A DNA stretch of 64,000 bases, taken from the NCBI GenBank assembly GCA_949152475.1, contig OX424570.1, positions 8,048,181 to 8,112,180 on the forward strand. Direction: 5' to 3'. Both the position numbers and the translations under genes were made by a program. Below are positions 800-63,165 of this stretch, one piece after another. The notes under the pieces are model-generated. The model had not been told where the DNA came from, did no database searches, and saw nothing but the letters and a program-made list of their open reading frames with translations. The stretch comes from Terebella lapidaria. Taxonomy: Eukaryota > Annelida > Polychaeta > Terebellida > Terebellidae. The stretch's first letter is position 1; each line of letters begins with the position of its first letter.

Positions 800-3125
800 G
801 CATGTTCACCATGTCGGTATTAACGGGAACTAACAGACTGAGAGCTGTGATTTTTGTCGTCATTTGATTCGCTTGAACTTCGTGTGCATTGCTTCTATTC
901 TTGGCTAATAGCGAGATGACCATTGTGCGGGACGAATAAAAGAGGCATGCGCCTGGGCTCATACTGAGTTGTAAGAGACAGAAGGATTCCTTTAAGTTAT
1001 TTAACCTGCGTGGCGATTGAGCACTTCAATACATGTCTATGCTTTTAAATTGGATAATGCTTACTTAAAGCAGGCAAAACATCTTTCAACGGAATTAATC
1101 ATTATAATTAATTACATCACATCAATTAAACAGACCAGCGATAATTTGTTACTACGCTACACATTCGTGTTCAGTTACACTGTCGTTTTGCTTTAATTAA
1201 AAAGTCATTTTAATAACATATTATTCAGCCAAACGTACACTCAATCTTGCAGGTTTACCAGCGAGGATTACTGGAATCGTTCTGGAACAGACCCTCTGGT
1301 ACATGTAATATTATTCCTCAACCTTTTTGGAGTGTTGTTGTAAACATATAATATATATGTTATAATTTGAAACGCTCATGGTGTGTATACGAGCTGTTTA
1401 TTCCTATACACATGCTCAAAATTCCAAGCAAACGACCCCGCAATGAACAACATGGAGGTAATGAAAACATGACATACACTTATTTACTCACATCAAGTGA
1501 ACGACTGCCATAAATCCAACTGAAAATGGAGCAATGCTGGAATAGATAGAAAATAGTGCCATATTCAGTGATGTGAGTAAAAGTAAAAAAAAATATTCCT
1601 TCACAGATACTTGGCCCAATTTCAGCTTCCGTCAACTTGCCAACGGAATCGTTTGCTGGTGCAGGTGCTATAGCATGAATGATAGACAGTACAAGGTTTT
1701 CTTTCCCAGATACATTATATTTACCAAACTTCAACCGAAATGGAGGCGATGTATAATCATATATCATATATAAAATTATTTTTGAACATTCACGTCTTCG
1801 TGTGCTAATCTCTCTTGTTAAAATTGGTTACAACACATGGCTGACTCCACTCTTGAATGCGGTTTATTGTGTAAAAACACCCAGTTGATATGAATTGGTA
1901 AAACTGGCCATTTATATTCAATATGGGTGACGTGGGAGTTATTTCCCATACGGATAAACTCATGCACGAGTATGTCTCATGTATAGTTGGCTTTCTTGAT
2001 AGAATGCTATCATATTTGAAAACTATATGTCACAAGTGGAATATCAAGAAAACATGACATTGGAAGTAGACACTCTCATATTATAGTATCGAGTGTTCGA
2101 AATTCAATGTCAGACAGGGATTTCTCGGATTCTGGACAAATCCGTGATACTGTGGATTGCAACTGAAAGTTCAATCTCGGAATAGAGTGACACATGTGGT
2201 TTAAATTGAGTTTTTAGGAGTTATCTTGCCTGACACTCCTTGAAAAAGTAAACGTTAATCATATCCAGTTGCTATAATAGTAGTACTGCAGGAATTTGTG
2301 TTTCTTGTTCTCTCAGAGTTCTCTTTTCTTGTTTCTCAAATTTACGTTTTATTCATTATATTTGTTGTTCTTCGTTGTGCTTCTCTACATCACACTCCAT
2401 TGCTGAAAAGAATCAACAAGAACGGCGCTCCAATAGTTTATTCACAACTCCACATGCATTCCAAGTATTTCCTAATTCATTTTACTAGACAGCCTGAACA
2501 TGTGACTCCATAGAATATTCCCCATAATTCCCAGTGACCCTGAACAATCTCCTATTCATGCTTAGAATTCGTTCCTAAACGAGGCTGATGAAGCAGGTAG
2601 ACAAATAGCACTGCCCATAGCAACATGTCATGATTTTCTGTTCACAACATCACATAAAAACAGCATCATAACTATCAAATAAATATGAAGTATACAGCCT
2701 ATGAAATATTGAGATATAGCTTGGTTTCTATCATGAAGATTATTTGTCGTCATCACAACTGATGATGTACCCGAGGTATCATGTTACCATATCTATTATC
2801 TTCAAATAATCCAATATATTGCCCTAAAAATAACCAGTGGCGTCTTATGACACATAGGTCGGATATGCATATTTAAAACACAACCCTCTATGATATTAAT
2901 CGCCCATGACAACTCTGTAAGACATGCACATGACAATAAAACTTACGAAGGCAATTAGTCAAGCATACATGAAAGACCGGTACTATACGAGGTAAACAAG
3001 ATATATCATTGAAATAGATCTTCTTGCAATCGACGAGGAGACATATACATAGACCACCCACGCGTCTGTACAGACAATAACTCAGACGCTAGTCTAAGTT
3101 CTAATTTTTTTGCAGAGAAATACAA
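800..3125 (+). repeat. Left outer arm of the large inverted duplication
   Basis: This segment matches 60,246-63,165 on the opposite strand over almost its whole length. Anchors are GGAACTAACAGAC near 830, the block around 1,480-1,770, the TTCTTGTTCTCTCAGAG block near 2,300 and the GACGCGTGGGTGG block near 3,060. The right copy has an extra ~240 bp insertion (about 61,740-61,985) and an expanded minisatellite (61,103-61,405), both absent here. Open frames of 60-95 codons within it are disrupted in the other copy, so I see no conserved coding. Confidence 0.8.
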
Positions 3126-3359
3126 GAGCATAGAACATTCGTTTGAAACGCACCGTGGCACTGCTATATGTAAGTATCAATCTACCACCAATACGTATTT
3201 ATATATTTTGTGTATGATTCAAGTCTGCAAAACATTTCAACCATTACATGGATATGACGATGAATTGCATCCCATTAACAGGACCGAACTTTTAAAGCAA
3301 TCTAATACAGATATCAATGAAACCTGGTGTTTTTAAACTGTGCAACTGAGCCCCTTGAT

Positions 3360-3390
<31 letters not shown>

Positions 3391-4771
3391 GAGGGGTATT
3401 GACTGGGACTTATCGTGTGTTGACATTATGCTGGATAAGTGGCTCGGTTGGTTTATGGTAATAGAATGTGATATCCCAGTTCGGTGCCTGCAGTGATATG
3501 TTTTCTTCTTGGATCAATCGTCTCGAGTTTGGAAAATCGTTGAGTATATTAGACAACCATACTAAACCATATCAATGATGATATCTACCTGAAGACTCTA
3601 CACCCACATAACCTATATTGGTTATGACTATAGTAGTTAGTTATTACCATGAGACCCATTAGTTGAATGTCCAACTATATAAACACTGACCCTACCCACC
3701 CAGTCGCATTAGGTTGTCATAAAAACCACACGGAAATTTGATCAATTTAGGCTATTTTGTTCAGGCATCGACATTACATATGCAGAGTATACTAGTCTAC
3801 TGTGACCTCCACAATGACTTCAGTACATTATGTGTATTAGTTATGACCATCGGGCCTTAGAGTATCCAATCCTGTAGACATCGAACCCACCCAACTAAAC
3901 ATAGTTGCCATGACAACAAAGAATTCTCCAATTTCCACTTCATTATGCATGTTGAAGAAAAGAACAAGTCATTATTCAACATTGCGCTACTGTCAGAAGT
4001 AGCTAATATTTATATTATTTCACCTGATGGTGTCATTGTTATAACAAACTATATGCCAAACTATAGCATACTCCTCCCCCCACAGAACAAGTCCATTCAA
4101 TTTATCATGTGACATGAAATTCAATCGAACTCAACACTGGTCATAAATGACATCGTCTATGTAATATGAAAATCGAGGATATATACCGATATTGATCATT
4201 TCTCTATCACAATATGCGTTTAGATTTACCCACACATGTTCTTTACACGAAAAAAAAAAATGTTCGGATATGCCGAATGACACTTTGACAGGCAGCTGTA
4301 CCAGCACCCTAATATTGCTCTTGTCATCGCCGATTCCACCGTTTCTCAATGATTCGTGGCGGTAAAGACTGCTATATCGTCCTCAAATTCATCTGATAAC
4401 TTAAGCCACTCTGACTTCAGTCTGTCGAATTTGTATTGAAATAAACCATCTGAAATCGATTGCATTGCCGGTAAAATCTGCGCGGACCGGCGCCATTGTT
4501 GCCAGACACGCGTATTTTGTGGGTCAGGTCAGGTCACGCTGTGTCATGAGCTCCTTTCGCGTTTGCTCATTCGTTCAAAAATCCGTGACTTCATGTCCAT
4601 GCCTATATATAGTATATAGGCTGCCTCACTTTCAATTCCATGGGGAAATTCCAGAGAAAAAGATACCAAAATATGGCCGAAAGCCGAAATCAGTTTCACG
4701 ATGCATTTTAGCAACGTCCGCCCAATCGTAGGCGATGCATTTATGCATTTATTCGAGATCTGGAGAGTGGG
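3126..4771. other. Gene-free spacer with dispersed repeat and poly-G tract
   Basis: About 3,270-3,590 is repeated in inverted orientation at 26,650-26,930; the shared anchor is CAATCGTCTCGAG and its complement. A TG run followed by about 18 G lies at 3,362-3,393. The rest (3,600-4,770) shows no recognised gene, only short open frames without domain features. Confidence 0.5.
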
Positions 4772-4985
4772 ATGGAGATTGCAGAAATGTCCAGTCAATC
4801 AAGTCAGACAATTGTGCTTGACGTAGCCCCACGGCTTGAAAACAAATTTTCAAATATTCAGCATGTTGAATATAAATACCAGATTGTCAATTGGTTGTTT
4901 TCGGGCTTACTTTTTCGGGCTTACATAAATACATGTCGTACCGCTTGCATGATGAGATTACAAATTTGAGAGAGGGTTAGTGTAT
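4772..4985 (+). repeat. Dispersed repeat, also at 63,520-63,690 and 21,735-21,790
   Basis: The block around 4,772-4,920 (anchor GTCCAGTCAATCAAGTCAGA) recurs on the opposite strand at 63,520-63,690. The piece at 4,930-4,980 (anchor CATCATGCAAGCGGTACGAC read on the other strand) recurs at 21,728-21,783 and, more diverged, near 49,445-49,500. I recognise no protein. Confidence 0.6.
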
Positions 4986-6221
4986 ACTGAACTCTTTTTT
5001 TAACTCGTTTACACCGTTTTCAGGTGACATTGTTGCGATGATGTATGGTATTGAATAATTGGCATGCTTCACCCTGGACTCAAACGGCAATTTTATACCA
5101 AATTCCATGCTTCTATCACAAAAATTGAAAAATAATCCAAAGTATATAGCATGGTCGATGTCCCAATTTTGGACAGAACCTTGGATTTTCTTCTCATGTT
5201 ATAGTATGAGCGATAAGATTTGTTTTGCCTCGCCAGGTACTCGTGTGTCAGTGTTCTCGTTAATGGATGGAGATGGAATGTGACTGCCTCATGGGGAGAT
5301 GCAGTGTCCAGCTGTCGGAAGTTTCTGATATCATCCCCTGCTGCGCCACACAAGCGAAACTCATCACTTATAAACGGGTGTGTGTTTTGTGTGAATGGAA
5401 TTATTCCAACCCATATCACGGGGGTCAAGCACACTTGTATTATTCGGAAGAAACTAGGCGCGTCAGCATTATTTCGAGTGGGTGCATGTGTTATTGGAGG
5501 GAAACGTGATGGAGATCACCATGCTCGCACAAACCCATCGTGGGTGCACAGTATTTGATCAATCCACAGACAATGTACTGTCACCATACAGTGTAGGATG
5601 GTGTTCTGCTTTCATTGACATTATGAACGAATTCGCCAGCATCTTTATTTTATCCGTATTCATGTTCCTACGTTTCGACTATCGGCTCGAAGACAACGGG
5701 AGAATTTAAACATGTTTCGGACATGTTCACACTGAAATCTGCCCAGATTCAGAACACTAGCAGAAGAATTTATCTTCTAAAGATGTATTCTTGCCATAGA
5801 ATAGTTGTTATGACTGTTCAGTGCACACAAAATAGTTTTGTGTTCTTGACCCCCTTGCATATTCAAACCGTTTTAGCTTCAAATGTCAAGATCGTGTTTC
5901 TGTTGATTATTTTTCGGTATTCCCTTTTAAATTCCAAACTGTTATACTGTTGACAATCTATATACCAATGAGATGAATTTTCTAAATGAACTTCGAGAAA
6001 CTGGCTGCCAATGTCCAGAGTTCGTTTTTCTACAATAATGGCTGATTTGACTGTCAAGGTTATTGAAGGTCAAATTCGGGATCACCACTGAAATTGACTA
6101 TGCCAATTATTAGGTCCTATCTTGAAGTAGTCAAAAATATGTCTGAGTTCACCTGATGAACAATGACCGGCCACTCAGACGCTGGTATCGTATAATTCTC
6201 GAGCACCTGTATTATACAAGA
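4986..6221 (+). repeat. Long dispersed repeat with Tc/mariner-like terminus (family A, copy 1)
   Basis: The left end reads TA then TACTGAACTC, followed by AACTCGTTTACACCG. That is the terminal inverted repeat of the small complete element at 10,021-10,658. The body (5,000-6,221) is repeated on the opposite strand at 20,540-21,735 and 48,200-49,445. Shorter diverged pieces with the ATGGATGGAGATGG...CCAGCTGT core lie at 18,120-18,330, 33,960-34,140 and 44,755-44,950. Open frames up to 113 codons occur on both strands but are not preserved between copies, so I treat it as a non-autonomous element or degraded remnant. Confidence 0.65.
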
Positions 6222-6228
6222 TAAAGGC

Positions 6229-6380
6229 CGTTTTGGGGGGTTCATGAGTTTCCCTGTCATTTTTGTTTTCTCTCACTTCGTATGCCTGATATGACTTTCT
6301 GTCCCCGGACTATGAGATTGGATAACGGACCCTGTTTTATTTGCTCGGAATACTTAATACTGGGTATTGATTCCTCGTCT
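6229..6380 (+). mobile_element. 3' UTR fragment of the YIDD reverse-transcriptase element
   Basis: The run from GGGGGGTTCATGAG through the CCCCGGACTATGAGATTGG region matches, on the opposite strand, the non-coding tail just beyond the reverse-transcriptase stop at 11,208 (about 10,970-11,110). It also partly matches 35,690-35,760. The corresponding position in the mirror arm (about 48,190-48,200) lacks it, so it is an insertion in the left arm. Confidence 0.55.
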
Positions 6381-6399
6381 ATGGATACGTCATATGGCA

Positions 6400-7660
6400 A
6401 TATTTCCCCCAAATCAATTCCGTTTGATCGAATAACTGTGCAAATTATCATACATATGTTACACCATCAATGCACTGCAACGGAGCAGAAATAAGCGCTA
6501 CCCAGAATAGAAAGCTAATGGTTCATAAACTTATCAAGCACAGTCGCTGCCTGCACAGACAAAGTTTATCCCGCACATAGATTACTTTCGATCCAATTGG
6601 AGCATCGGTGTATATGAGGCTACAAAACACATTTTACAAGGAATTGATGGTGTAAAACTGTTCAATCACCAACGATGCTCAAAGATATTGGCACAACAAA
6701 ATGGTTTTTTTTTTTACGATCTTGGGTTTTTGTAACCTGGTGGTTGTGAAAATAACTCTACAGTTTGACAGACAATCTGAATGTATTTCATAGTAACTTT
6801 TATCTCAGGGATAATAGTCTGGCAAGCTTCATAAAGGTCTAGACATACAGCCGCTCATCTCTGGCAAATTTATCATACATTTCATAACATATTTCTGTGG
6901 AAGTGTCTTGAATATTATTATAATAATTACGAAGTCACAAACGGAGCAAAGAGTTTGCTCCACATGACATATTGTATTGCGACTGAATTGGAACAGTTGG
7001 TCAATTTGTACAAGTCATAGCGCCATGTAAGCAGAACACTCCACCCCAGGAATATGACGAGAATGGTGTCTCTTCCGTTATTATGAAACTACAGGCTGTG
7101 AAATAAATTCTTGTGCTTGTTGCGTCTCGGAAACAAGCTCCTTCACATGCATAAAAACATGACACGTCAATGTAACTAGATCAGTCTTATTACTATATCT
7201 CTGATAACAGAATAGCTCTGCATGCAAGTGAAAACGAATTTGAGTTAAATACTGCACACAAGTAATTGTCATGGAAACCAACGACTGGCCATTCTCCACC
7301 AACAACTCCAGCCCGTGCTATCGCGGTATGACAGCAAAGATGTTTCAGAATTTTTGAACACGATGAGTTGGTGGGCATTCACTCGGGAGATTGGGGCAAT
7401 CTCGGACGCTTTTGAACGAGTTTGGTTTTGTCTGTCAACAGTATTTTTCTTTTTACCTCCGTGGAATACGACAGAAAATGATATTAATTGCACTAATTGC
7501 ATGGATTCAGTGCAATCATATTCAAACCATTTAGCTCGGTATCGTATTTCATTTACTCACTTGATATTGTGTTTCATTAAATTTACTCACTTATTATTGT
7601 ATTTAATCATTCATAATTCCGGATTACATAACCATTTGTCAGCAGATAGTTGAGCACTTT
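6400..7660 (+). repeat. Continuation of left arm (mirror of 47,190-48,170)
   Basis: Anchors shared in inverted orientation include GGATAACGTTTATC-type and TGACTGTGCTTGATAAG sequences (6,480-6,570 versus 48,050-48,130), the TTTGCTCC block near 6,950 versus 47,670, and the AACAACTCCAGC block near 7,300 versus 47,290. A 150-bp sub-block is also related to 32,410-32,500 and 36,205-36,300. No coding region is supported. Confidence 0.65.
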
Positions 7661-7690
7661 AAGAAAAAATTAGGCCAAGGGCCAAAGATA

Positions 7691-9171
7691 GGTTACCGGA
7701 CAATGTTTAATATTTTAGATATTAGCCAGGTCACTGATTGAATTCAAGGTCAAGAGAATATTCAGCATATATAACATTAAGCATATATCATGTCTACAGT
7801 TGATTGCTAAGCTGTAAATTCAATAATCAGCGAGATATTAGCAATTTTGTGCTGTGGCCTTGAAAATGAAGGGGCAAAGGTCAAATTCAAGGTCATCAAA
7901 ATATTCAGTGTATATAATTTTCTATATCATGTCTACAATTGATTCCCAAGCCATACTGTCAATAGAGGAGCAAGATATGAGCCAGTTTGTCCTTGGACCT
8001 TGAAAATGAGGTCAGAGGTCAAATTCAAGGTCCGAGAATATTCAGCATATATCATTTCCTACATGTCCACAATTGATTCCTAAGCTGTAAAACCGATAAT
8101 AAGTGAGATATTAGCCATTTTGTCCTGTGACCTTGAAAATGAGGTCAAAGGTCAAATTCAAGGTCATGACAATAGTCTGCATATATCATTTCCTATATGT
8201 TCATAACTGATTCCTAAGCTGTAAAGTCGATAACAAGCGAGATATTAGCCATTTTGTCTTATGACCTTGAAAATGCCGTCAAAGGTCAAATTCAAGGTCA
8301 TCAGAATATTCAGCATATATCATTTCCTATATGTCCACAATTGATTCCTAAGCTGTAGAGTCGATAATAAGTGAGATATTAGCCCTTTTGTCCTGTGACC
8401 TTGAAAATGAGGTCAAATTCAAGGTCATGACAATAATCTGCATATATCATTTCCTATATGTTCATAACTGATTCCTAAGCTGTAAAGTCGATAACAAGCG
8501 AGATATTAGCCATTTTGTCCTATGACCTTGAAAATGCCGTCAAAGGTCGAATTCAAGGTCATCAGAATATTCAGCATATATCATTTCCTATATAAATGTC
8601 CACAATTGATTCCTAAGCTGTAGAGTCGATAATAAGCGAGATATCAGCCATTTTGTGCTCTGACCTTGAAATTGAGGTCAGAGGTCAAATTCAAGGTCAC
8701 GAGAATATTCAGCCTATATCATTTCCTATATGTCCACAATTGATTCCTAGTCTCTAATCTCAATATTAAGTGAGATGTTAGGGATAATGTGTACCATTAT
8801 AAAGCATAGGAGAAATTAACATGGGAAAGTCCCATTTGGGCCGAGTTTGGGCCAAAATGGCCCACTTCGAGCGATTCAAGCGCAACGAAATTTATAGACA
8901 GGAGTGTTATGTATCAAAAAGAAAAAAAGTTACTGAACAGATTTTGAGAAAATGGCCACCAAAATCAGGCAATTTTTGGTCGAAAACGGCTGCCATTTTG
9001 AAAAAAATGCGAAAGTCAAAAAACTAAAAAATATCTCCTTCTTGAATTATTTTTAAGTATTTTTGTACAAAATTTCAGAAGAATTCGCCCGTAAACAAAA
9101 AAGATAAAAATGTGGACGACGACGGACACAACGCCATGCCAATAGGTTATCCGACCATAGGTCCGGTAACC
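7691..9171 (+). mobile_element. Helentron-associated (HINE / pearl-like) non-autonomous element
   Basis: The block begins GGTTACCGGAC and ends GTCCGGTAACC, flanked on both sides by TA (7,689-7,690 and 9,172-9,173). Just inside the 3' end is an imperfect palindrome, GGTTATCCGACC then ATA then GGTCCGGTAACC, able to form a terminal hairpin. The core consists of eight tandem units. Terminal inverted motifs, a 3' hairpin and a tandem-repeat core are the published hallmarks of Helentron-associated elements and of molluscan pearl elements. A simple TIR element with a TA duplication is the alternative. The mirror arm lacks this block. Confidence 0.65.
7742..8760 (+). repeat. Minisatellite, eight units of about 135 bp
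   Basis: ATTCAAGGTC recurs at 7,742, 7,885, 8,023, 8,156, 8,290, 8,417, 8,551 and 8,689, giving unit lengths of 127-143 bp. Each unit carries ATTCAAGGTC, CATATATCATTTCCTA, a CACAATTGATTCCTAAGCTGT-like segment (variable) and GAGATATTAGCCATTTTGT. Most units carry several AGGTCA half-sites. Three (around 8,003, 8,142 and 8,674) hold AGGTCA-N-AGGTCA direct repeats. Confidence 0.9.
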
Positions 9172-9390
9172 TAAAATAAGATATACCTCCAAAGTCTAGG
9201 CCTATCAGTTGTTTGACAAATCTACACAACTGTAACGTCATTAAGACATCACACTTCTCAAACAAATCAAACGAGAATCTTATATGATATAAATAATAAT
9301 ATATATACATGGTCTCCTCGAGAGAACATCACACTCTTTGGGAACATTTCGTCACCTTTCCCGGCCCATGTAGCGCAGCTTACTATTTCT

Positions 9391-9633
9391 TCTATATTCA
9401 ATGAAGAATAAAAATGTGCCAGACGGGTTGAATATGGTATACATTCAGTGGATGAGTAGAATTAACAGAGTAAGGTGCGCTACTTGGGCCTGTTTCCCTC
9501 CACACTAGGCGCCCTGGGCCTCATATCATGTGTATTTCTCTATATTCAATAAGGATTAAAAAGGTGCGAGACGGATTAAATGGTATGTTTTCAGCGGACG
9601 AATAGTATTAAGGAGCAGTGTACGTTACTTGGC
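9391..9633 (+). repeat. Direct duplication of about 100 bp, offset 148 bp
   Basis: TCTATATTCAATGAAGAATAA near 9,391 and TCTATATTCAATAAGGATTAA near 9,539 each open a diverged unit. Each runs through an AGACGG(G/A)TT...GGTAT block and ends in GCTACTTGGGCC or GTTACTTGGCCC. No coding potential is seen. Confidence 0.6.
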
Positions 9634-9689
9634 CCAAACGGGTCACCGTTTTTTTTATAATACCAAACGTCACTCATGAACGTCAAAGT

Positions 9690-9950
9690 CATTGGACCGT
9701 GGCGGTAAATATTTCGTTGCAGAGGTCAACCCCGCACGGTGGGCAATTCAATGCAGAACACACAAATTCACAAAATGCCATCTCAGGCCAAATTGAATTC
9801 CGAAGAATGCAGAATACACAAAATCTAAGGTCCATTTTGCAGGTTTTCCTTCAACTAAACGTTCTTTCGACAGGTTAGTTCAAGCTCACCAAAGGTCCTA
9901 TATTAGTTATTACAACGAATGGAAGTATCAATCCATCACTACTAATACAA
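9690..9950 (+). repeat. Left-arm segment mirrored at 46,820-47,080
   Basis: The sequence around GAATGCAGAATACACAAA and the AGCTCACCAAAGG block are found in inverted form at 46,860-47,060. The region is gene-free. Confidence 0.65.
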
Positions 9951-10730
9951 CCAGATCCTGATGACGCCAACAGAAAACGTAAAATAAAAAATAGAAATAG
10001 AAACAAAGCCCGGTAGACTATACTCTGATTTTTCTAACTCGTTTACACCGTTTTTTGCCGATATTTTTGCGATGTTTAATAATGGTATCGTATTGTAACT
10101 TGGCATACTTCACCTGGAGATCAAACGGCATTTTTCTGCAAACTTTCAGACTTCTGCTCATAGAACTGTGAGAGTTAGCAATCTACTGCCATGATAAATT
10201 TTTGCTGAAATCCTGTCGTTTGCATGTCAACAAATATTGTTTTCCTTTGGCACGTGATGGGCGATTCTGTTCCAATAATTTGCATAGGGGCGAGGGTTAG
10301 GAACCGGGACCACCCACGCAGGTAAACTGATTCGAAATTACTAGCACGTGCAGGCACCTTGACGACAATGACAACCCATCCCCCTATTATGACTAATTTG
10401 AACTTGTCCATTTGGATTCCGTCATCAGTTGTCGAGAACTAAGCAATATGTCGGCGCCCATGGTTCGAGCAAATCCTCGCTTAAATAAAACTTTTGTGTT
10501 TTGGAAGAAACAGATAGCGTCCCGGAAGGCAGGTTTGTGTAAATTAATTGCCGTTTGTATCACAGATATGCAATATTCAGTTAAATAGTTCGCTCGAAGT
10601 AACTTGACTGAACTGAAGGCAAAAAACGGTGTAAACGAGTTTAAAAAAAATCAGAGTATAGTTCATTCAAAGACACAACGGCATCATCAGGGGCAGACTG
10701 AGTGTGGAATACAGCTGTTTCTACCACACA
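9951..10730 (+). repeat. ~310 bp dispersed unit (family R), split by a MITE
   Basis: 9,926-10,020 and 10,659-10,730 together form one diverged copy of the unit found intact at 15,361-15,670. Anchors are GAAGTATCAATC at the left and GGCATCATCAGGGGCAGAC at the right. The interruption is the 638 bp element at 10,021-10,658. On the minus strand the copy reads GCCCCTGATGATGCC. Confidence 0.65.
10021..10658. mobile_element. MITE with TIR TACTCTGATTTTT and TA target duplication
   Basis: The left end TACTCTGATTTTT...AACTCGTTTACACCG is the inverted complement of the right end, which runs from about 10,620 to 10,658. TA flanks both ends (10,019-10,020 and 10,659-10,660). About 110 bp inside the left end match the start of family A (5,000-5,110), so this looks like an internally deleted derivative of that family. 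The TA duplication and TIR type suggest the Tc1/mariner superfamily. No transposase is encoded. Confidence 0.75.
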
Positions 10731-10849
10731 TTGAAAAACTATATACTCATGATATAGAATCTAAGCTCTGTATGCGCGCACTGTGTCCCCATGGGCCAGT
10801 TTTGATGGTCGTATTGCTTACAACAGAGTAATTAAGAAGAATCATATGT

Positions 10850-11845: not shown

Positions 11846-11849
11846 AGAA

Positions 11850-50005: not shown

Positions 50006-50010
50006 TGTGC

Positions 50011-51321: not shown

Positions 51322-51326
51322 TGTGC

Positions 51327-53333
51327 AACGGATTGCGGTTGTAATGTTCGAAACAATAGTTCGAGACGATAATATGCATCCTCTTGTACTAGAGTCTGAT
51401 GTGGTAAAATTTTGAGGTCGAGTCGATTTTGGTTTCCACCAGAGACTGCTTTTCATCCGTAGTATATGCTATTTATTATATATATTGTGCCATCGTTGTG
51501 AATGATCAAATCATAATAATGTTACTTACACTCATAATTTCGATTATTGCCAAACTAAATCTGACACTGGTGATCTTGTATGCCAATGTATTATATTTGC
51601 TGACATTGTAAGATCACACTCCCGCGACCTCACGGCCTAACTTTGCATGGGGTCCTTTCAATCCTGTATTAGGTCAGGTTAACTACCCAGTGCTACTTAG
51701 CTTGTCGGACTGTGATAAGATATAATGATGAAGTAGTGATAAAGCTTGTCAGACTAATGTGATCCAAATTCCATGAAACACATAGATGTATAGATCCTGT
51801 CAGATAAGTTTTCAGATGATAATGTTTTGAAATAAGTATTTTATTCGTTCTGAAAAGATTTATTCCGCGATCACACACATCAAGTACTTGCACACAACAA
51901 CAACTACACACATATAATGTACAAAGTGCAACAATTAACTCGGTTTAACAATCTGTACAGCAGTCGCATTGCAGAAAAATTCATATTAAATAATAATTAT
52001 AAATTATCACTATAATTATAAATGATTTTAATTTCTTTTTTATTCTTGCAAATCCATTTACACTGTCTACGGGTTCACATTTTCACAAAGGAAACCAAAT
52101 CCAGGATCAGTGCCAAAATTTAAAAAAAAATCATTTCATTCAGCAGGTTACATACTCCGTCCAAATATTCGAGCATTGCTGGTATTGTTACAAACTTTAC
52201 CATAGTTTCTGAATGTAGGCTATTCAAGTCTGGGGTTGCAGAAATCTAAAATCCTCAGTGTGAGCCAACTAAGGTTTGTACTGCCCCCAAAATACTATTC
52301 ATCCAATGAAAACATAAAATTTTATTGATATGGTTTCACCCTAAATCTTCATTCGATATGGTATAACAGCACACACATATCAGGACTAAATGATGTTTCA
52401 TGGTCGGTGAATATCATACATGTAATATGTTTGAATTATTCAGTTCAGCTGTGAACAAGCATATTGTTTGTCTACACTACTTGCTGGTAGTAATTTTGTT
52501 GAAAAAAATAATAATTGTACGGTCCCGTAGCTCATGACATACCGATACCAATAAAATAGTTAATAGGTGAGCGCTTATCACGATAGTAGGAATAATGAAT
52601 GACCGCTCTGTTGCATGCTATTCACATAAACCTAATTGAAGGGCTGACTATAAACAGAGGTGAAAATCTGTCTGAATATTGCTTTGTTCTAAGAATGACT
52701 GCATAGCTGGGTACATTACGTGCAGTTGAGTTGAACAGGTTCCAGGCGCTATGCAAGAAGAACAATTAATATTCTGAACTGGTTGATTGAGCTACTGATG
52801 AAGCCCATGTACAATAATGAGGAATTCGAGTACAGTAATAATACTCTTGTAAAGTCGTATCTGTTCCAGTTGAGTGTGTCATGAGTACACATAATATTTA
52901 GGGGCACCGTATAGTACGGAATTATTACAAACGAACGAATATATAATGACCTGAGTATAATAAGGAAAAAAATTATCGTGAAAGATGTTCATCGAAAAAA
53001 GTAGTTTTTACTCCTCCGTGACTGGTACACCATGTTGTTTGAAACAACTGTTCAAAGCCAACAGAAGATTTTATTGAAACAGAGAGATACATGAATATGG
53101 AGAAACTTTGTGCGTGCAAGTACAGAGAGCGAAAACATGTGAACAAAGTCATTTCTGTACATAGCATGATCTGCTCAAGGTTGCGTCCAACAATAAGCAG
53201 CGCTCAACACCACATGAAATAGTTATTGAATATTGTTGTCCGGGAAAGGTCATCAGGTCGATCAACCAGAATCAATTGATGAGGTACACAGTCTCACCAG
53301 GTACAAAGTCCAGTCCTGTCTCGGTGTCCTTCG
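51327..53333 (+). repeat. Direct duplicate of 22,243-23,540, with insertions
   Basis: Matches resume at CAACGGATTGCGG and run with gaps to the PAN-exon remnant. 51,920-52,580 has no counterpart and no recognisable content. Confidence 0.7.
53270..53333 (-). pseudogene. C-terminal half of a duplicated PAN exon
   Basis: The minus-strand reading PKDTETGLDFVPGETVYLIN then stop is identical in protein to the end of the gene at 23,479. Homology stops abruptly at 53,333, in the middle of the codon series. The missing N-terminal half is on the plus strand at 55,906-56,085. Confidence 0.85.
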
Positions 53334-55905
53334 GACATATGGCCCCAATTCTGCTATATGCTCATCCTTGAATCTCATGTAAGGAAAATACGGTAATGGT
53401 GTTCTTTCTCCACCATAAAAGCGCAAATGATATGGTTTCAACGTAATATTAGTACCTTTGGAAAACAATAGATATTCTTAATTTTTAACACCGTACCAAT
53501 CTTTACATTTCTCGATACTGCCTGAATCTCGTAACTGCCTGAATGACTGTATCCAATTACCAAAGCAAGGCTTCATTCCTGAAGACGTTAAAGACTCCAG
53601 GTCATGCTAGGTGAGGACAGTGCAACAGGAGTTGACCTTGAAGCAGTTGGATAGCAGTTTTCTTGCAGGTGTTGTATGGGCAACGGATTGATACTTCAAT
53701 GACACAAGTCCCTCTGCCACGGACAGATGACAACTTGTCTCTTCATGGGCGCTGTGCTCATCTTCATATGCTGCTATTGTAGGCAGCTGACGGAATGAAT
53801 ATGAATGTTATGAATATGGAATATAGGAGGGAAGTGACAGATGACATTGTATCAACAGAGGCCCGCCTGGACCACCACTATTGCTGAATGTCATCAGGTG
53901 CGGCTACCGAGCAAAAGACAAGGCCTGCAAGCAAACCAGCTGCAGTTGTCAACGTCAGAACTGAGCTGAAACACATATTTTTCTGCAGGTGACGGTTGTT
54001 ATAACCTATTCACAAGAAAGATGAGGCGGTGGTGAACAGTGAGGATGAGCATCAACATAATAATTGATTTGTCCTGTAGGATAATCGCGGCAAGCTGGGA
54101 GATGATTAGTTGGATATTAAGTCTTCTTGTACAACTTCACAGCCGCGGCTGATCACAGTAATGGACATGAAGTTATGAGTGCACAAAACAAGATAAGGCC
54201 ATTCCTGTTTAATTTTCTGTTTCTCGTCCCCGCGCGCCTAGCTTTTTGCGAAAATTTTGAGAAAAAACAAACAAGATAAATATGTAATATTATGGAAATG
54301 CAAGCGATTTTGACACAAAATTCCGCCAGTCTCTGTAAAGCTTACTCTTATTGGTCTCGCAGCAAAACTCATCCGACTGGCTTATGTGTATACAAGATGT
54401 ACCCAGTTTTGAACAGACTAACATTTCAAATTAACAATTCTTACCACAAATAAGTTTCTAGATTCAATATGAAACTACGATATATTTTCAGATGCTCAAA
54501 GACTTAGGTCCTCCACCCAAGCAACTTTTGCATTCAGAGAATCATTGCACGGTATATCGTTTTTTATTTGAAGGTCTGTTTGTTTTTTTCCGCCCTCCCT
54601 CCTAGCTTTTGATTTTCCAAAGGACGAGAAACAAAAAATTTAACAGGAGTAGCCTAACTCGTATTATTTCTATTACTACCATGATCGCTAAAATCGCGGT
54701 AATTTATTTTAATGCTACGTCCAATGTAAAATGCATATTTTCTGTCGAATGATTCACCCTGTGTTGGCCTCATGATTTTGAAATGTAGTAAATGCTTGCT
54801 GGGTCATGAATGGACTATATATAAAAATTGCTGGCAGTTGCATTGTTGGATGTATCATGGCGTAGTTGAAGATAAATGTTGTGAATCTGAAGCCACGTTT
54901 GTTTACTCTGATTTTTACTCGGTTACAATGGTTTTCGCAGATATTTTTGAGATGTTTGAAGGAATTGTATTATAACTTGGCATACTTCATTGTGGAGTCA
55001 AACGGCACTCTTCTAACGAATCTCAGACTTCTATCGTAGAAACTGGCTGTCTACCGCAATATGAATTACAGCCCAAACAGCATCACAGAAATCTGAAGAT
55101 ATTCCAGTAAATGGGAGTTGGAAGTATTGTTGTAGTTTTGGAACAGAAAACACATTAGGGTGTATCCTACACAAACAAGCAAATACACACAGTTGTATGC
55201 GAATCAAGACGTTCAATGATGGGGCTAAAATTAATAGTGGGGTAGATTTCCAACTATCTGAAATTTTGCGAGAGAAGAAATTTGGTCGGAAACTGCCTCT
55301 TGACTTTTCCCAAAGTGAACATTGCTCAATTGTGTATTACATATAGGTAATCAGTATATCATTACAGATAACTTAACAAGCAATCCAACAATGCGAACCA
55401 CACACAGTAGTGAAAACGTAAAATTCAACTGGTGTGGATGAATGTCCATATCCCCTAAAACCGGGAAATTTGACAATTTTGTGTGAAAACTGACCTTGAC
55501 CTTAATCTTATATGGTGACTTTGACCTCGGATCACGGAAATTTCAGCAGAAATGAATTCCTTGGCTCAGACTTGTATAGAAAAGTGCTATCACACTTCAT
55601 TCTAGGCCTATTACTATAAAAGTTATATTTTGATAATGCTAATTATCCATATCTGGCGGTTATTATGCTAATTAACCAATAAAAAAGTTTCCCCAAAGTT
55701 GGCGCAGTGCAAACAAAGCTCAAAATCTCCTGGAGACACATATGAATGCATATCAATAAAAAAACCTTGCTGTTTCAACAATTTCTAGGTTCGTTGTCTG
55801 GCAACTAGACTATATGCACATGTCTCTCTCCTATCTCAGGAGCAGATAGGTGTAAGGATTTAAATAACTGTATACAATAGAGTTATTAATATTGACTTTT
55901 TTCAG
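53334..55905. other. Probable inverted segment; contents mostly non-coding
   Basis: It contains a 45-codon minus-strand open stretch at 53,335-53,468 (RTPLPYFPYMRF) that I do not recognise, the MITE 54,204-54,647, and a family A-like end at 54,905-55,030 (TTTACTCTGATTTTTACTCG). No trace of the LRR exon was found upstream of the plus-strand PAN half. Confidence 0.5.
54204..54647. mobile_element. MITE with ~25-bp terminal inverted repeats
   Basis: The left CCTGTTTAATTTTCTG...CTCGTCC and the right GGACGAG...AATTTAACAGG are inverted complements with few mismatches over 444 bp. CCTAGCTTTT-type sequence lies inside both ends. There is no coding; the superfamily is not assigned. Confidence 0.7.
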
Positions 55906-56085
55906 ACAAGGGAGACTTTTTGCGACACTCGACCTTCAAAAAGGGCAAAGGAGGGGTCATGACCTGTGCGTTGAATCTTCTGAGGGTTACCAAAATTAAG
56001 AGTATCTTTCATTGTGCGAACGCATGCGTAGCTGATCTGAAGTGTGTCGCTTTCACAATAGCCGATGGAAACTTGTGTTCCCTGG
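55906..56085 (+). pseudogene. N-terminal half of a duplicated PAN exon, inverted
   Basis: It begins after TTTTTTCAG, exactly like exon 2 of the intact gene, and reads through RHSTFKKGKGGVMTC and CANACVADLKCVAF to NLC. Then it changes to unrelated sequence at 56,086. Rotating 53,334-56,085 would rejoin it to the remnant at 53,333, so an inversion broke this copy. Substitutions such as NVFD to SIFH show it has been diverging. Confidence 0.85.
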
Positions 56086-56530
56086 GGCCATATGGAGCAG
56101 AATTGAGCAGAATTGGGGCCAAAATTCATGACATGTCATATTTTGCTATATTCACTTTTTATCTCGAGATTATAGAAAGCTAAACTATCAATTGTAGACA
56201 TGTGAACTTCAGATTGTAGAAAGCACGAACTACAATAGGTACATTATTTGTTCAAAACTCTAATATTTAAACTTTTTCGTCAAAATCAACAAACCATATG
56301 TGTGAAGAAATAAAAATAAAATTTATATTTTAATAGTCTATGATTCAGTAAAATACAATAAAAAAACAACACTTTATATAAGTGGTTTTCTCCTTACGTA
56401 GTTCTATAGTTTATATGTTTCTGATTCACGTTCTGTCATTCATCAATTGACAATTTGGCATTCAGAAATCTATCTTCTGCATTTTGACATTTTGAAGTTC
56501 GTGTTGGAAAGTCTACAAAAGACTCTCGCA
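56086..56530 (+). repeat. Left inverted repeat flanking 56.1-59.9 kb
   Basis: GGGGCCATATGGAGCAGAATT onward matches the opposite strand of 59,560-59,895 over about 400 bp (anchors GCAGAATTGGGGCCAAAATT and CATATGTGTGAAGAAA). The first 20 bases also resemble 53,335-53,355. Confidence 0.7.
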
Positions 56531-57160
56531 TGTGGAACAGAGGGCGCGTGAAGCGATATGAGTTTTGTTAATGTGAAACCAAATACTCCCTCACGCCATG
56601 CCACCCACACACCCGTGCAAGACGGTTCACTCGCGGGGAAAAACTTGAATGCCTATCGGTATGCATCATGCTGATGATAGTGTTTGTGAATGGGAATAAC
56701 TAGGCCTATATTTCCTACATCCAAAACATTATATTTAAAAATTAATATATCATTGTAAGTTATGCAAGTTACGTGTGCGCTTCTTCCTATTTTGTCATGT
56801 CCATTCATGTCATGTCCATTCCTTTATTCATTGCATTTTTGCAATACTATTTGGAAGAAAAAGTTTTGGAGACATCTAATTTAGTGTATATCAACAACAA
56901 CAACAACCGCAAGTTCACGACGAGTTGTTTTTGTTAGTTTCGCGGAAATATATTTATTCTGGATTCTATGCACATAATGGTGATAAGATGGCATATAAAT
57001 ATGGTCACTCATTGGGATTGGTTCATTTTTTTAAAAATCATAATTCAGGGAAAAATATCATGTGCAAGAACATACTAAAAGTTTTGTGATGAGATAGAAT
57101 CACCAAAAATTGTGTGTTTACCACAATATTTATGACAAAGAACCCTTGCGATGGACCGTG
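56531..57160. other. Gene-free stretch
   Basis: AT-rich, with no recognisable coding or RNA gene. CAACAACAACAACAA-type simple sequence lies near 56,893. Confidence 0.4.
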
Positions 57161-58208
57161 GAAAGATGTTTATTCCACAGTTAGACTCAACAAGACGAGC
57201 AATAATATCAGTACATTATAAAAATAGAATATATTTTCAAAATTCAGTCACACCTCAATATTATCAATTAACAAGCTAACTCCTACACAAATGAATCATA
57301 CAAGGGAAGTTTCAGACAACTGAGGCCAGCAGAACTGAAGTACAGTAAATAGCTGAACACGAATGAAATTAGGTCCATCCTACAAATACTAGTACATGTA
57401 TAAATGCCTTGTCCACATATTCGTAAAAAAACTGTTTATCAGAAAATGATAAATTACTGTGCTTATGTTATTAACTGAACCAAACTACATGTAAATTTCA
57501 CAGACCATGCAGGACTGACACAAATACATGTCTAAGCACGCTGCTAACACAGCTTGGAAATTCATGAAGTCCAAAATAGCTATTTAAATGTGCTTCTGCA
57601 CTGAATACATTGTCTGTAATAGATATATTGTTTGAATCAGGTATATTATCTCTACGATAGCATTCCAACATATTACTGCATATATCACAAACATATTAAT
57701 CTGTTATGAATGTGATCAATGTATATACATGTTCTTGGAAATTTTCAACTTTAAAACTTTGTGAAACCATCATTGAGCATCAAATCCTATACTACATATG
57801 GAATGCTTCTGAACATGAACAAAACATACTTCATCATACCAAGTACATACCGGGTATGCATTTACATTTTTACTACCAAACTCATTATTTATCACACTAT
57901 CAGCTCAAAGTTCAAGATGTTGAAGACAACATCTTGAGTGTCACCCCCTTTCAGTCAGCCTTCGATCAGGAGCCATGCCTCCTTCAGTTCGCCTGTGATC
58001 TTGAGTCTTGATGCTGATTTCAGTCAGTCGATTATCTTGACTTCAGGCCATAACATCAGTCATCACCTAACAAAAATTTGAAAGAAACATTTTGAATTCC
58101 AATACACATGTATGCAACTATCAGGTCATAACTTGATCATTTTATTATATTTATATAACAAAAATGCAGAATATCTTGGATGATAAACTTTAACAATTTG
58201 TAATTCAC

Positions 58209-58264
58209 CTGTCAAAAATCATCAATTGCAGAGTTAAACCGTCCAATGGCGCCCCCACTTGCAC
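58209..58264 (-). other. 56-bp candidate internal exon
   Basis: It is bounded by a strong polypyrimidine tract plus CAG and by CAG-GTGAAT. Read in phase 0 it has no stop (VQVGAPLDGLTLQLMIFD). Confidence 0.35.
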
Positions 58265-58494
58265 CTGAAAGGTGGAAAAAAAAAATCCAGTAGAAATGTA
58301 TATTTATAGGCTATTACTATGTGGCGATTTCACCCAAAGATCACGGCAGGAGATTCTTTGTAAACACTACTCTTGTTTTGACCGCTTCGTATTCGAAGCA
58401 TGTGCGCTACATAGCAACGCCCTCTAATCCTCTCGCTCCATTGTACTGTAACAATGGTCTCACGTCATCCCTCGTGTTTCGTTTCTTTAGGGGT

Positions 58495-58524
58495 TATAAA
58501 TACTCTGGCGCCGTCTTGTTCAGT
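58495..58524 (+). promoter_or_regulatory. TATA box plus initiator
   Basis: TATAAATA at 58,495-58,502 is followed 27 bases later by TTCAGT at 58,519-58,524, an initiator-like motif at the canonical distance. It opens the GC-rich block downstream and could be a retroelement LTR promoter or a gene promoter. Confidence 0.5.
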
Positions 58525-58870
58525 GGAGTTGTCTCAGTGTTGGCAAGGCGAGAGGACGACGGAGGGCTCGGGTAGGGCTCGGGTATGAGCTAAGGCCCGC
58601 GGGGGCCCTTGGGACTATTCCCATAGGAGGCCCAGGAGGGAGACCGTGATGATTCGGGACCCTGTGATCACCGGTCTCTCGCCCTGGGATGGTGTGACAC
58701 AGGCTCTGGCAGACCGTCGGGCTGTCCAGGGTTCCACCCCTGTGGCAGTGCCGTCGGCGAGGCCGGCCAGCAACATGCCCACGTGTGCGAGTTCTGTGGT
58801 GCCGCTCCCATGGCATCTCAGGCTCTGCATTCGGCAACATTACCACAACTACCCCCGCCAGCCGATATAT
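58525..58870 (+). other. GC-rich block of foreign composition, possible retroelement leader/gag
   Basis: Base composition changes sharply from AT-rich to GC-rich and back. One plus frame of about 75 codons without ATG, from about 58,625, ends HVCEFCGAAPMASQAL ... PPPAD and a stop at about 58,870. It is Cys-containing and resembles a gag-like leader, but I cannot name a family. The long minus-strand frame (132 codons, Arg/Pro-rich) is a shadow of the composition. Confidence 0.35.
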
Positions 58871-59304
58871 AACATTTTTCAACCCCAAAACCGAGGAGAG
58901 CGGCTGTCGAAGCAACATTGACAGATATTGTGCAGCCGAAGGTATCGCTACACTGGCTCATTTATTTAATTTAAACTCTCAACAACAATCATGAATAATA
59001 TTCCGTGCAAAACCAAATCCGACATTTCAAAACAGTAAAATTAGAGAAATTGTATGTATTTCCTGCTAGAAGTTAACCAGAGGCTGCCATTTCCTCATAA
59101 TAACGCGTAATACTCATGATTTTACGCGGCACTCCCCGAATAACGCGTAACGCCTAGCCACCGTGAAAATGGACGTTCGCTTCGTTTTCGCCTTCGCCGA
59201 TTACAAGCCTATAAGCCCTAATTATCGCCCAGACACCACATTTCGGAGATTAAATTCAACAAAATAAATTGATTGAGTACTTCGAAAACGTGAAAAGGAG
59301 AACT
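58871..59304. other. Gene-free stretch
   Basis: It contains two ATAACGCGTAA repeats (59,100-59,150). It lies in the presumed intron of the candidate minus-strand unit. Confidence 0.4.
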
Positions 59305-59559
59305 CACCGTCAATTTTCTCTTCATTAAATATCTTTTGGCGGAGTAAAAACGGCTGGTAGATGGGTACAACATAAAAGTTTTGTCGAAGTCGGCTGTGCA
59401 GACACTATTGACAATCCATCGCCAGCCAGGAGCTTTGGCGCCGGCAGGGAGGCAGCATCAGGGAGCATTTAGTTTCACACTCCTCTAACATACTTCGCGA
59501 CATACTTCATGACATACTTCGTGACATACTTCAAGACTTCCAAATACGAACTTTCAAAC

Positions 59560-59895
59560 ATGAACTTTCAAACACGAACTTTGGAAATACAAAATATAGA
59601 TTTGTGAATGCGGAATTAGCAATAGGTAAATGACAAAACCTGAATTATATACATGCAAGGTGTTGAAATACGGAAGAAGAAAACAAGTTATATAAAGTTT
59701 TCTTTGTATTTTACTGAATTGAACAATGAAATATAAATTTTATTTTCCTTTCTTCACACATATGGGTTGTTCTTTTTTGAAATGTTTAAACATTAAAGTT
59801 TAAATGATAAAGTTTCAAACAGAGAATGTGCCTATTGTTGTATGTGTTTTCTACAATCTGATCATTAATTTTGGCCCCAATTCTGCTCCATATGA
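59560..59895 (-). repeat. Right inverted repeat flanking 56.1-59.9 kb
   Basis: The counterpart of 56,086-56,530. Its inner part has several short tandem variants: CGAACTTT/TTCAAACA at 59,540-59,590 and GACATACTTC at 59,500-59,530. Confidence 0.7.
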
Positions 59896-60245
59896 ACAGG
59901 CCTGAAACTTTTCGAAGCGAAATACCCTCCGCCAGTTTTTACGATTTCCGAACCGTACGTTACGGTAATCGTATGGTATTCTGGGTATCGACAGTGCATG
60001 TAATAGTTGACATGTTTTGCAGACTTGAATCATACACAAAATACACAAGTACGTGTGATATCAGTCACATTATTTGTAGGTATTGTCTTTTGGCTGCCCT
60101 TTCCGATTTCTATTTCCACTCAGGAGAATAACAAGCCAAAAGATATGTTATTTCATGGTGCCAGTTAGGAGTAGACTGATCCTTATGATGAATATATAGC
60201 AGTGCGACAGTGCGTTTCAACAGTGCGGTGTTTTTATACTTTCTT
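59896..60245. other. Gene-free spacer
   Basis: Short frames on both strands (65 and 86 codons) overlap the repeat edge and have no recognisable motif. Confidence 0.4.
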
Positions 60246-61102
60246 TTTTATTTCTCCGTCAAAAAACTAGAACTCAGACTAGCGTCTGAGTTATTGTCTG
60301 TACAGACGCGTGGGTGGTCTTTGTATATGTCTCCCCGTCGATTGCAAGAAGGTCTATTTCAATGATATATCTTGTTTTCCTCGTAGAGTACTGGTCTTTC
60401 ATGTATGGTTGACTAATTGCCTTCGTAAGTTTTATTGTCATGTGAATGTTTCACAGAGTTGACATGGGCGAGGAATATCGTCAGAGGGTTGTGTTTTAAA
60501 TATGCATATCCGACCTTTGTGTCATAAGACGCCACTGGTTCTTTTTAGGGCAATATATCGGATTATTTGAAGATAATAGATATGGTAACATGATACTTTG
60601 GATACATCATCAGTTGTGACTACGACAAATAATCTTCATGATGGAAACCAAGCTATATCTCAATATTTCATAGGCTGTATATTTCATATTTATTTCATAA
60701 ATAGCAGCAGTCGGCAGAACGAGGTAGTAAGTTCTGATGCTGTTTTATGTGCTGTTGTGAACAGAGAATCACGAAATATTGCTCTGAGCAGTGCTATTTG
60801 TCTACCTGCTTCATCAGGCTCGTTTTGGAACGAATTCTAAGCATGAATAGGAGATCGCAAGGGTCACTGGGAATTCTGGGGAATATTCTGTGGAGTCTCA
60901 TGCTCAGGCTGTATACTAAGATGAACTGGGAAATACTTGTATATATGAAATAATAATCATACAAGGAATGCATGTGGAGTTGTGAATAAACTATTGGAGC
61001 ACCGTTCGTGTTGGTTCTTTTCAGCAATGGAGTATGATGTAGAGAAACACAACGAGAAACAACAAATATAATTGATAAAAAGTAAATTTGAGAAACAAGA
61101 GA

Positions 61103-61405
61103 AGAGAACTCTGAGAGAACAAGTGAAACAAGAAACACCTTGTACTAACAAGATAAGAGAACTCTGAGAGAACAAGTGAAACAAGAAACACCTTGTACTA
61201 ACAAGAAAAGAGAACTCTGAGAGAACAAGTGAAACAAGAAACACCTTGTACTAACAAGATAACTCTGAGAACTCTGAGAGAACAAGTGAAACAAGAAACA
61301 CCTTGTACTAACAAGAAAAGAGAACTCTGAGAGAACAAGTGAAACAAGAAACACCTTGTACTAACGAGAGAAAAAGAACTCTGAGAGAACAAGAGGAACA
61401 AGAAA
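61103..61405 (+). repeat. Minisatellite, about six units of 52-59 bp
   Basis: AGAGAACTCTGAGAGAACAA recurs at about 61,103, 61,156, 61,209, 61,268, 61,319 and 61,375. The mirror position (about 2,298-2,330) has a single unit, so the array expanded in this arm only. The repeated Phe/Leu/Ser-rich minus-strand frames are by-products of the array. Confidence 0.9.
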
Positions 61406-61739
61406 CACAATTCCTGCAGTATAGTAACTGGATATGATTAACGTATGCTTATTCAAGGAGTGTCAGGCAAGATAACTCATAAAACTCAATTTAAACCACA
61501 TGTGTCACTCTATTCCGAGATTGAACTTTCAGTTGCAATCCACAGTATCACGGATTTGTCCAGAATCCGAGAAATCCCTGTCTGACATTGCATTTCGAAC
61601 ACTCGATACTATAATATGAGGGTGTCTACTTCCAATGTCATGTTTTCTTGATATTCCACTTGTGACTTATAGTTTGCAAATATGATAGCATTCTATCAAG
61701 AAAGCCAAATATACATGAATCATAGTATGATATACTATT

Positions 61740-61985
61740 GGTATGCTCTGTCCCCGAGGACACCATCAACTCAGTAGCCTTTTGGCTTGTGATTAGGTAC
61801 TTTTTCACTTGTCATATATCTATTCCATGGGGTTTGTTTCGGATTTCAAAATTATTTTCATAGGTTGTTGGGCAGTTGTATACTAATTCCATCAGGTGTA
61901 CAGTAGAAACAACTACATTAACCACATTGTCTGCCCCTGACGACGCCAGTGTGTCTTAGATTGATACTTATAGATTGAGTATATA
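61740..61985 (+). repeat. Family R unit inserted in the right outer arm
   Basis: It starts GTCCCCGAGGACACC and includes GCCCCTGACGACGCC, a hammerhead-core-like motif changed by one base. It ends in short TAGATTGATACTTA repeats. The left arm at about 1,960-1,975 is uninterrupted (CATGCACGAGTATGTC). Confidence 0.65.
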
Positions 61986-63165
61986 GATTGATACTTACAT
62001 ACTGGTGCATGAGTTTATCTGTATGGGAAATAACTCCCACGTCACCCATATTGAATATAATTGGCCAGCTTTACCAAGTTATATCAACTGTATGTTATTA
62101 CACAATAAACCGCATTCAAGAGTGGAGTCAGCCATGTGTTATAACCAATTTTGACAAGAGAGATTCGCACAGGAAGATGTGAATGTTTAAAAATAGTTTT
62201 ATATATGATATATGATTACGATCGCCTCAATTTCGGTCGAAGCTTGGTACATTTAATGTATCCGGTAAAGAAAACCATCTGCTGTCTATCATTCATGCTA
62301 TAGCACCTGCATCAGCAAAGCTTGACGATTCCGTTGGCGAGTTGACGAAAGCTGAAATTGGGTCAGGTGTTTATGATGGAATATTTTTTTTTGCTTTTAC
62401 TCACATCTCTGAATATGGAACTATTTTCTATCTATTCCAGCATTGCACCGTTTTCAGTTGTATTTGTGGCATTCGTTCACTTGATGTGAGTAAATAAGTG
62501 TATGTTTTGTTTTCATTACCTCCATGTTGTTCATTGCGGGGTCGTTTGCTTGGAATTTTGAGCATGTGTGTGGGAATAAACAGCTGGTATACACACCCTG
62601 AGCGTTTCCAATTATAACATATATATTCCATGTTTACAACAGCACTCCAAAACGGTTGAGGAATAATATTACATGTACCAGAGGGTCTGTTTCAGAACGA
62701 TTCCAGTAATCCTCGCTGTTAAACCGGCAAGATTGAGTATAGTCTGGCTGAATAAATGAAGCAAAACGACAGTGAAACTGAACTCGAATATGTGTGGATA
62801 AAATTATGGACAAAGGTGCAGCGTAGTAAAACATTATGGTTGGTCCATGTAATTAATTATAGTGAATAATTCCGTTGAAAGATGTTTTCGCCTGCTTTAA
62901 GTGAGCATTGTTCAATTTAAAAGCATAGGCTTGTAATGAAGTGATCAATCTCCACGTGGGTTGAATAACTTATGAGGAAATCCTTCTGTCTCCCACAACT
63001 CAGTATTAGACCACGTGCATACCTCTCGTCCCGCACAATGACCCTGTGGCATGTAGCCAAGCTTGAAGGAATATTATATATTGCATGAGAATCAACTGAT
63101 GACATTGGGGTGCACAACTCTCCGTCTGTTAGTTCCTGTGACTGCCGACATGTTGAAATATGCCT

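Follow-up and report, generated by a model that had tools for sequence, protein, structure and literature searches.

Segmental duplications, or low-copy repeats, have been catalogued under a criterion of >90% identity (PMC4053137). Fold-back inverted duplications, described in human patients, have reported spacers of 766-70,466 bp, with the spacer at normal copy number (PMC3907307). Among DNA transposons, ISL2EU elements are presented in PMC4482050 as making an AT target duplication within AATT and as coding for a transposase with DDE, HTH and THAP domains in one open reading frame (ORF) and for YqaJ in another. The locus that we compare with these systems comes from the annelid Terebella lapidaria: a window of 64,000 nucleotides (the whole stretch of DNA analysed; GCA_949152475.1, contig OX424570.1, positions 8,048,181 to 8,112,180 of the forward strand), in which a sequence-only reading had noticed a giant decayed palindrome. 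The palindrome is real, yet it is one pair within a multi-copy patch, and there is nothing unusual in old local duplication of this kind; we consider the locus very probably an old cluster of serial local segmental duplications, direct and inverted, that was followed by transposon insertion.

The locus is a known kind of structure. Like local segmental duplications, it consists of kb-scale neighbouring low-copy segments, direct and inverted, with unequal divergence, a shared block order and later transposon insertion; unlike them, it reaches 90% identity over aligned sites in only 19 of 44 comparisons between copies, and no duplicated gene was identified in it. The resemblance to fold-back inverted duplications, as PMC3907307 describes them, lies in the two inverted copies around a spacer, here of about 13 kb and within the published range; unlike in those, the spacer here holds further pieces of the duplicated unit, and no junction microhomology is readable.

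The Inverted Chain within the Window

Self-comparison of the window under sensitive settings yielded 64 minus-strand matches joining non-overlapping places, 18 of which form a chain in inverse order that pairs 603-19592 with 63345-32731. The chain, for which overlaps of up to 60 bp were tolerated and in which one short match (2299-2333/61200-61236) reuses left bases of its neighbour, holds 10,927 of the 17,776 bits of minus-strand matches. The five block pairs that had been named from the sequence were all recovered near the places given there, and the claim of a giant palindrome with more than ten collinear inverted blocks is borne out: when the right-hand positions of the 41 matches of at least 60 bits were shuffled, 0 of 2000 permutations reached the chain score (observed 11,020; top permuted 9,229). 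No minus-strand match at E<=1e-3 occurred in five Markov-shuffled windows. In a 50-kb control from contig C5, the top minus-strand chain joined 2 blocks worth 714 bits; the window, at equal setting, had one of 16 blocks and 10,833 bits. The other 46 of the 64 matches lie outside the chain. Several of them are strong, for instance 4919-6134 versus 20588-21790, and gave the first hint of more than two copies.

A Cluster Read as Five Partial Copies

The window corresponds to C17:8048181-8112180 of its own genome assembly (762 Mb, 438 contigs), and 100 kb of flank was added on each side, so that 264 kb in total were compared. The window proved to be the middle of a cluster of about 110 kb (window coordinates, about -32 to +77 kb). 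We interpret this cluster as one unit, with the order e-f-g-c-d-B-A, represented by five partial copies in both orientations. From left to right, copy 1 (A- B-) occupies -31.7 to -21.6 kb, copy 2 (c+ d+ B+ A+) -20.8 to -2.9 kb, copy 3 (e+ f+ g+ c+) about -1.4 to 19.6 kb, copy 4 (f- e-) 20.6 to 27 kb, and copy 5 (B- d- c- g- f- e- e- e-) 28.9 to 77 kb. The palindrome is copy 3 paired with copy 5.

The left arm (603..19592, plus strand) contains e (to 3.2 kb), f (4.9-7.4), g (9.7-11) and c (11.8-19.6) and is truncated before d; its homology runs past the window edge to about -1.4 kb, opposite 77.3 kb, and near these two points it fades, the outer ends not being sharp. The right arm (28878..63345, minus strand) carries B (28.9-31.8), d and c (31.3-45.3), g (46-47), f (47.2-49.5, extending to 53.3) and e (60.0-63.3), and is adjoined beyond the window by tandem additional e copies from 64.5 to about 77 kb. 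Between the arms lies the extra partial copy (20587..26921, minus strand), composed of an f segment at 20587-23542, matching 48.3-53.3 kb, and of an e-side piece at 25627-26921, matching 68.7-70.0 kb. A second, shorter palindrome is found to the left, where -31.4 to -21.7 pairs with -11.8 to -2.9 kb. Blocks of up to 3.1 kb are present in 2-4 local copies.

Inverted pairs of at least 150 bits cover 54,659 of 115,000 bp of the cluster, versus 1,368 of 50,000 bp in the C5 control. Five overlapping 50-kb windows lying wholly or mostly outside the cluster contained 0, 3,114, 4,363, 5,098 and 5,701 bp in inverted pairs, and two windows inside it, in which a single orientation is represented, 602 bp each. 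The palindrome had been attributed to one ancient inverted segmental duplication or to a very large fold-back element. Segmental duplication is supported, but a single event is not, because segments of the arms recur inside the window (20.6-27 kb) and on both of its sides (-32 to -3 and 64.5-77 kb), in copies that the sequence-only reading had not noticed.

Copy Number of the Blocks in the Genome

Copies of the arms were also sought elsewhere in the genome; the match counts are lower bounds, and very common words were skipped. Block e (603-1975) gave 8 matches, all within 74 kb at 8.048-8.123 Mb of C17, with 5 of 5 first-look candidates scored. Block f (4920-6222) gave 65 matches with 40 of 1399 candidates scored; at least 1200 bp of it were covered at 3 places, all in the window, and its other matches are short, some of them local (motif X, see below), the rest dispersed and for the most part limited to a 138-bp piece near 4995-5132. 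For block c (17796-19529), 40 of 107 candidates were scored and 44 matches found, among which every match longer than 102 bp falls on C17 at 8.03-8.10 Mb. With B, 40 of 738 candidates were scored and 40 matches obtained; a dispersed element of about 713 bp that lies within B took up this search, leaving the known local copies unlisted.

Long matches of e, f and c were therefore seen solely at the C17 locus among scored candidates, which argues against these three blocks being high-copy families with independent ends, the outcome that had been named as refuting the palindrome. The same confinement disfavours a dispersed fold-back element. A single very large mobile element of the fold-back or terminal-inverted-repeat type, with arms at 0.6-19.6 and 32.7-63.3 kb, would agree with the long collinear inverted arms flanking a spacer, but we judge it extremely unlikely: long matches of arm blocks e, f and c were confined to this locus among scored candidates, the neighbourhood holds a third and more copies of arm segments, some of them direct, and the ORFs of transposon type found between arm blocks are those of an insertion present in one arm only, described in the next section. 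Nothing was found that points to a present-day joint action of the two arms as one element.

One-Sided Gaps and Later Insertions

The gaps between neighbouring blocks of the chain carry a record of their own. Of the 13 gaps of at least 150 bp, 11 are one-sided, with a shorter side of <=200 bp that the longer side exceeds at least 1.9-fold (17 of the 18 matches were used, 2299-2333/61200-61236 being omitted); the two two-sided gaps measure 1669 versus 10489 bp and 2856 versus 790 bp. One-sided gaps are as expected, because insertions that took place after the duplication would give gaps of this kind.

The clearest insertion lies at 37699..43763, in the right arm only, and is a putative ISL2EU-type DNA transposon. 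Its transposase and THAP ORFs are on the minus strand and its YqaJ ORF on the plus strand, with domain matches to DDE_Tnp_4 (1.6e-34), HTH_Tnp_4 (8.3e-8), THAP (9.5e-13) and YqaJ (1.7e-13); its terminal inverted repeats match, and it is bordered by an AT target duplication within AATT. The empty site is preserved in the left arm at 16585..16588, where the chain blocks overlap by 4 bp and AT is single. This 6-kb insert shares with ISL2EU, as portrayed in PMC4482050, the AT duplication in AATT and the DDE/HTH, THAP and YqaJ domains; unlike in that description, THAP and DDE/HTH occupy separate open frames here. The YqaJ ORF retrieved 7 proteins, the best at 34% identity, followed by three oyster proteins at 31-36% and weaker remainder. 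The insert is a passenger in one arm and not the cause of the palindrome.

Other insertions interrupt one copy of a segment and spare another. In the left arm, 15359..16041 is a tandem pair of a short element (99% alike), which recurs at 61.7-62.0 kb and in the flanks, and the right arm is unbroken at 44296-44303. Also in the left arm, 6223..6474 contains a high-copy element of about 160 bp, opposite a gap of 28 bp on the right; the search that revealed it listed 45 matches, most of them on query 1303-1467, with 40 of 2355 first-look candidates scored. The left-arm insertion at 7374..9744, facing 181 bp in the right arm, holds a dispersed tandem array (7741-8781, period 134 bp), whose family is represented in the left flank and the C5 control as well. 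In the right-arm copy only, segment B is broken at 29388..30100 by the dispersed element of about 713 bp, for which 39 copies at 83-96% were listed elsewhere (40 of 738 candidates scored), and the B pieces on either side of it adjoin each other directly in the copies near -23.5 kb and -9.7 kb.

The abundance of dispersed elements between the blocks, and partly within them, would agree with a chance row of independently inserted high-copy repeat families. We hold that explanation to be very improbable, and the sequence-only reading was right to doubt independent insertion: the collinear inverse order was equalled in none of the 2000 permutations, nearly all gaps are one-sided as counted above (11/13), and e, f and c are without long copies elsewhere among the candidates scored.

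Divergence and History of the Copies

Kimura two-parameter (K2P) distances between copies fall between 0.078 and 0.153 in 38 of the 44 comparisons, with a full range of 0.061-0.220. The copies differ at 5.9-19.0% of aligned sites, and the 25 comparisons that do not attain 90% identity are those that differ more; identity was counted at aligned sites, and gaps would reduce it further. This divergence bears on the possibility that the assembly joined haplotypes or chimeric reads in inverted orientation. A single assembly was available, without reads, which leaves room for such an artefact, but copies that differ at 5.9-19% of sites, private insertions in each arm, including the 6-kb transposon, and several separate copies in two orientations make it a most improbable one.

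Divergence is not even along the arms. Between the two arms, substitutions range from 3.4 to 14.5% over the 14 of 18 chain blocks entered in the test, and these blocks are heterogeneous (chi2 68.7, 13 degrees of freedom (df), p 1.4e-9). In block e_1, a grouping of e1 with e3 (left and right arm) against e4 with e5 (the tandem copies) is backed by 51 sites, the alternatives by 2 and 4; in the adjoining block e_2 the corresponding figures, 6:6:2 sites, give no resolution. The groupings of the three c copies differ weakly between sub-blocks (chi2 13.9, 6 df, p 0.03). Conversion between copies, different extents of the duplications or uneven constraint could each explain the uneven divergence. A further observation concerns 1971-2329 and 61369-61724, which differ by 3.4% substitutions, with flanking blocks at 8-15%, and which include a 110-bp exact match; either conversion or constraint may account for this low divergence.

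Content of the Duplicated Unit

Three short motifs recur in the unit. Motif X, of about 200 bp, is found at 5180..5398 on the plus strand and again at 21308-21514(-), 49020-49230(-), 44723-44946(-), 18122-18323(+) and 33954-34164(-); together with two copies to the left of the window, 8 copies scoring 189-226 bits are present in the 264 kb, against a best of 3.9 bits in the control, with a profile built from the same copies that it scored. Motif Y, of about 230 bp, lies at 16081..16310 on the plus strand, with further copies at 18709-18942(+), 33325-33571(-), 44036-44264(-) and, weaker, 28956-29070(+); in the 264 kb it has 6 strong copies (223-271 bits) and 3 moderate ones (62-70 bits, in B). 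Motif Z, of about 190 bp, is located at 6398..6587 on the plus strand and at 32413-32598(-), 36203-36384(-) and 48039-48170(-), with 5 strong copies (139-191 bits) and some weak ones in the 264 kb. The three motifs keep their order in several deep paralogues, and the sequence that separates them has diverged. This older paralogous order inside the unit implies that internal duplication had already enlarged it at an earlier time.

The synonymous-excess scan and the Pfam and homologue searches that were made revealed no gene in the unit. The scan compared block pairs over runs of at least 40 codons, counting each copy pair in both directions, and has little power where exons are short; among its 344 runs the lowest p was 0.018, uncorrected. 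For X, Y and Z, no frame of the six is free of stops in all copies. In frame -1 of Y, opposite to the plus direction of the unit, the variable columns number 21, 13 and 30 of 77 per codon position, counted on majority columns; this bias (chi2 9.4, 2 df) has an uncorrected p of 0.009 and is one of 18 frame tests. Moreover, a stretch of 45 codons in Y is open in 6 of 6 copies (equalled in 12 of 300 column permutations), the synonymous share in this frame is raised (13/300), and pN/pS (ratio of non-synonymous to synonymous differences) is 0.40. Y has a weak coding-like signal, not significant after correction for the 18 frames. A hairpin-like inverted repeat was also noticed in Y by eye.

The coding-like features of Y would suit a unit derived from a duplicated protein-coding gene, by now mostly decayed, with Y as an old exon that reads against the unit's plus direction. 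This origin seems unlikely, although it retains some appeal: the codon-position bias does not reach significance over the 18 frames, X and Z have no such pattern, the block-pair scan gave nothing stronger than the value quoted, the Y peptide has no match in Pfam, and frames running through the whole of Y hold stops outside the 45 codons. X was also considered as coding and set aside; it has a shared open stretch of 44 codons (6/300 permutations), but its synonymous share is low (299/300 as high or higher). The ORF with similarity to leucine-rich repeats (LRR) at 24015-24704 on the minus strand (229 codons; LRR_8 E 1.5e-4, with Pfam scores below the cut-off) was likewise rejected as an amplified gene, having no second copy in the 264 kb (a 20-residue match, E 0.82) and no homologue at E<=0.001.

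The unit may instead consist of duplicated non-coding RNA genes or regulatory modules, of which X, Y and Z would be the conserved parts kept by selection. The maintenance of their order in deep paralogues, within diverged surroundings, speaks for this possibility, which we nonetheless regard as improbable: Rfam gave 0 matches at the gathering threshold in the window, a consensus fold of motif X is unsupported (1 of 29 pairs with a double, compensatory change, and an unfavourable covariation term), and some pieces are expected to persist by chance. Both of these explanations concern the content of the unit and are compatible with its serial duplication.

Origin of the Cluster

Serial local duplication is the reading that we favour; it draws on the copy map, the orientation and divergence of the copies, the confinement of e, f and c among scored candidates, and the insertions in single arms, all of which were observed directly. 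An ancestral unit, with older internal repeats X, Y and Z, would have been duplicated several times in place and in both orientations. The inverted copies may have arisen by strand-switching duplication, in which a broken end or a stalled fork folds back or changes template, and the direct ones, such as the c pair in plus orientation and the e tandem on the right, by unequal exchange; deletions, and perhaps some conversion between copies, would have followed.

Several points weigh against this reading or narrow it. The copying mechanism is one that we infer, because no junction is readable to the base. The uneven divergence could mean different ages or constraint rather than conversion. The comparison of inverted content has a single independent control (C5), and in the flank windows outside the cluster inverted pairs amount to as much as 5,701 bp. 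Genome-wide confinement covers three of the segments, e, f and c, and block f itself includes a dispersed-repeat piece (about 4995-5132) and has partial matches at 69-73% on contigs C3 and C15. Finally, the one-sided gap at 61131-61368 sits in a 53-bp tandem array and may be due to growth of the array and not to an insertion.

Neighbouring Features

A 1.3-kb element is found at 50003-51321 and again at about -70330 to -69010 (L011/L012), the two being 98.9% alike and one end starting with TAGGGGCGTAGCC; this would be a recent insertion of an unnamed DNA element. The fragment at 10965-11807 shares 93.9% identity with part of a longer element (-62.1 to -61.2 kb), whose ORF resembles a Penelope-type reverse transcriptase.

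Beside the outer end of the left arm, at about -2.8 to -1.4 kb (L018:7170-8642), there are two open frames, and the G+C content from -2.5 to -1.5 kb is 53-58%; the ORF at L018:8154-8642 was tried as a candidate and dropped, with no homologue at E<=0.001 and none above the Pfam cut-off. Further into the left flank (L010-L011), ORFs of about 255 codons at -84.1 to -83.3 kb (minus) and -77.3 to -76.5 kb (plus) are alike by eye, and this pair is perhaps another local inverted duplication, maybe a gene pair. The right flank, from +111 to +128 kb (L023-L025), contains direct tandem duplications, the longest of 3.6 kb at 91%, without strong match to the window.

Significance

A giant palindrome that is striking in the raw sequence can be one pairing in a longer history of duplication in two orientations, and such a multi-copy history is visible only with the flanks and a genome-wide search for copies. 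Paired arms also offer a before-and-after record, in which an insertion in one arm can be set against the empty site in the other; in this locus, that record identified the ISL2EU-type insertion. Should transcription of the X-Y-Z modules, or constraint on them, be shown, this locus would serve as an instructive example of cluster growth by inverted duplication.

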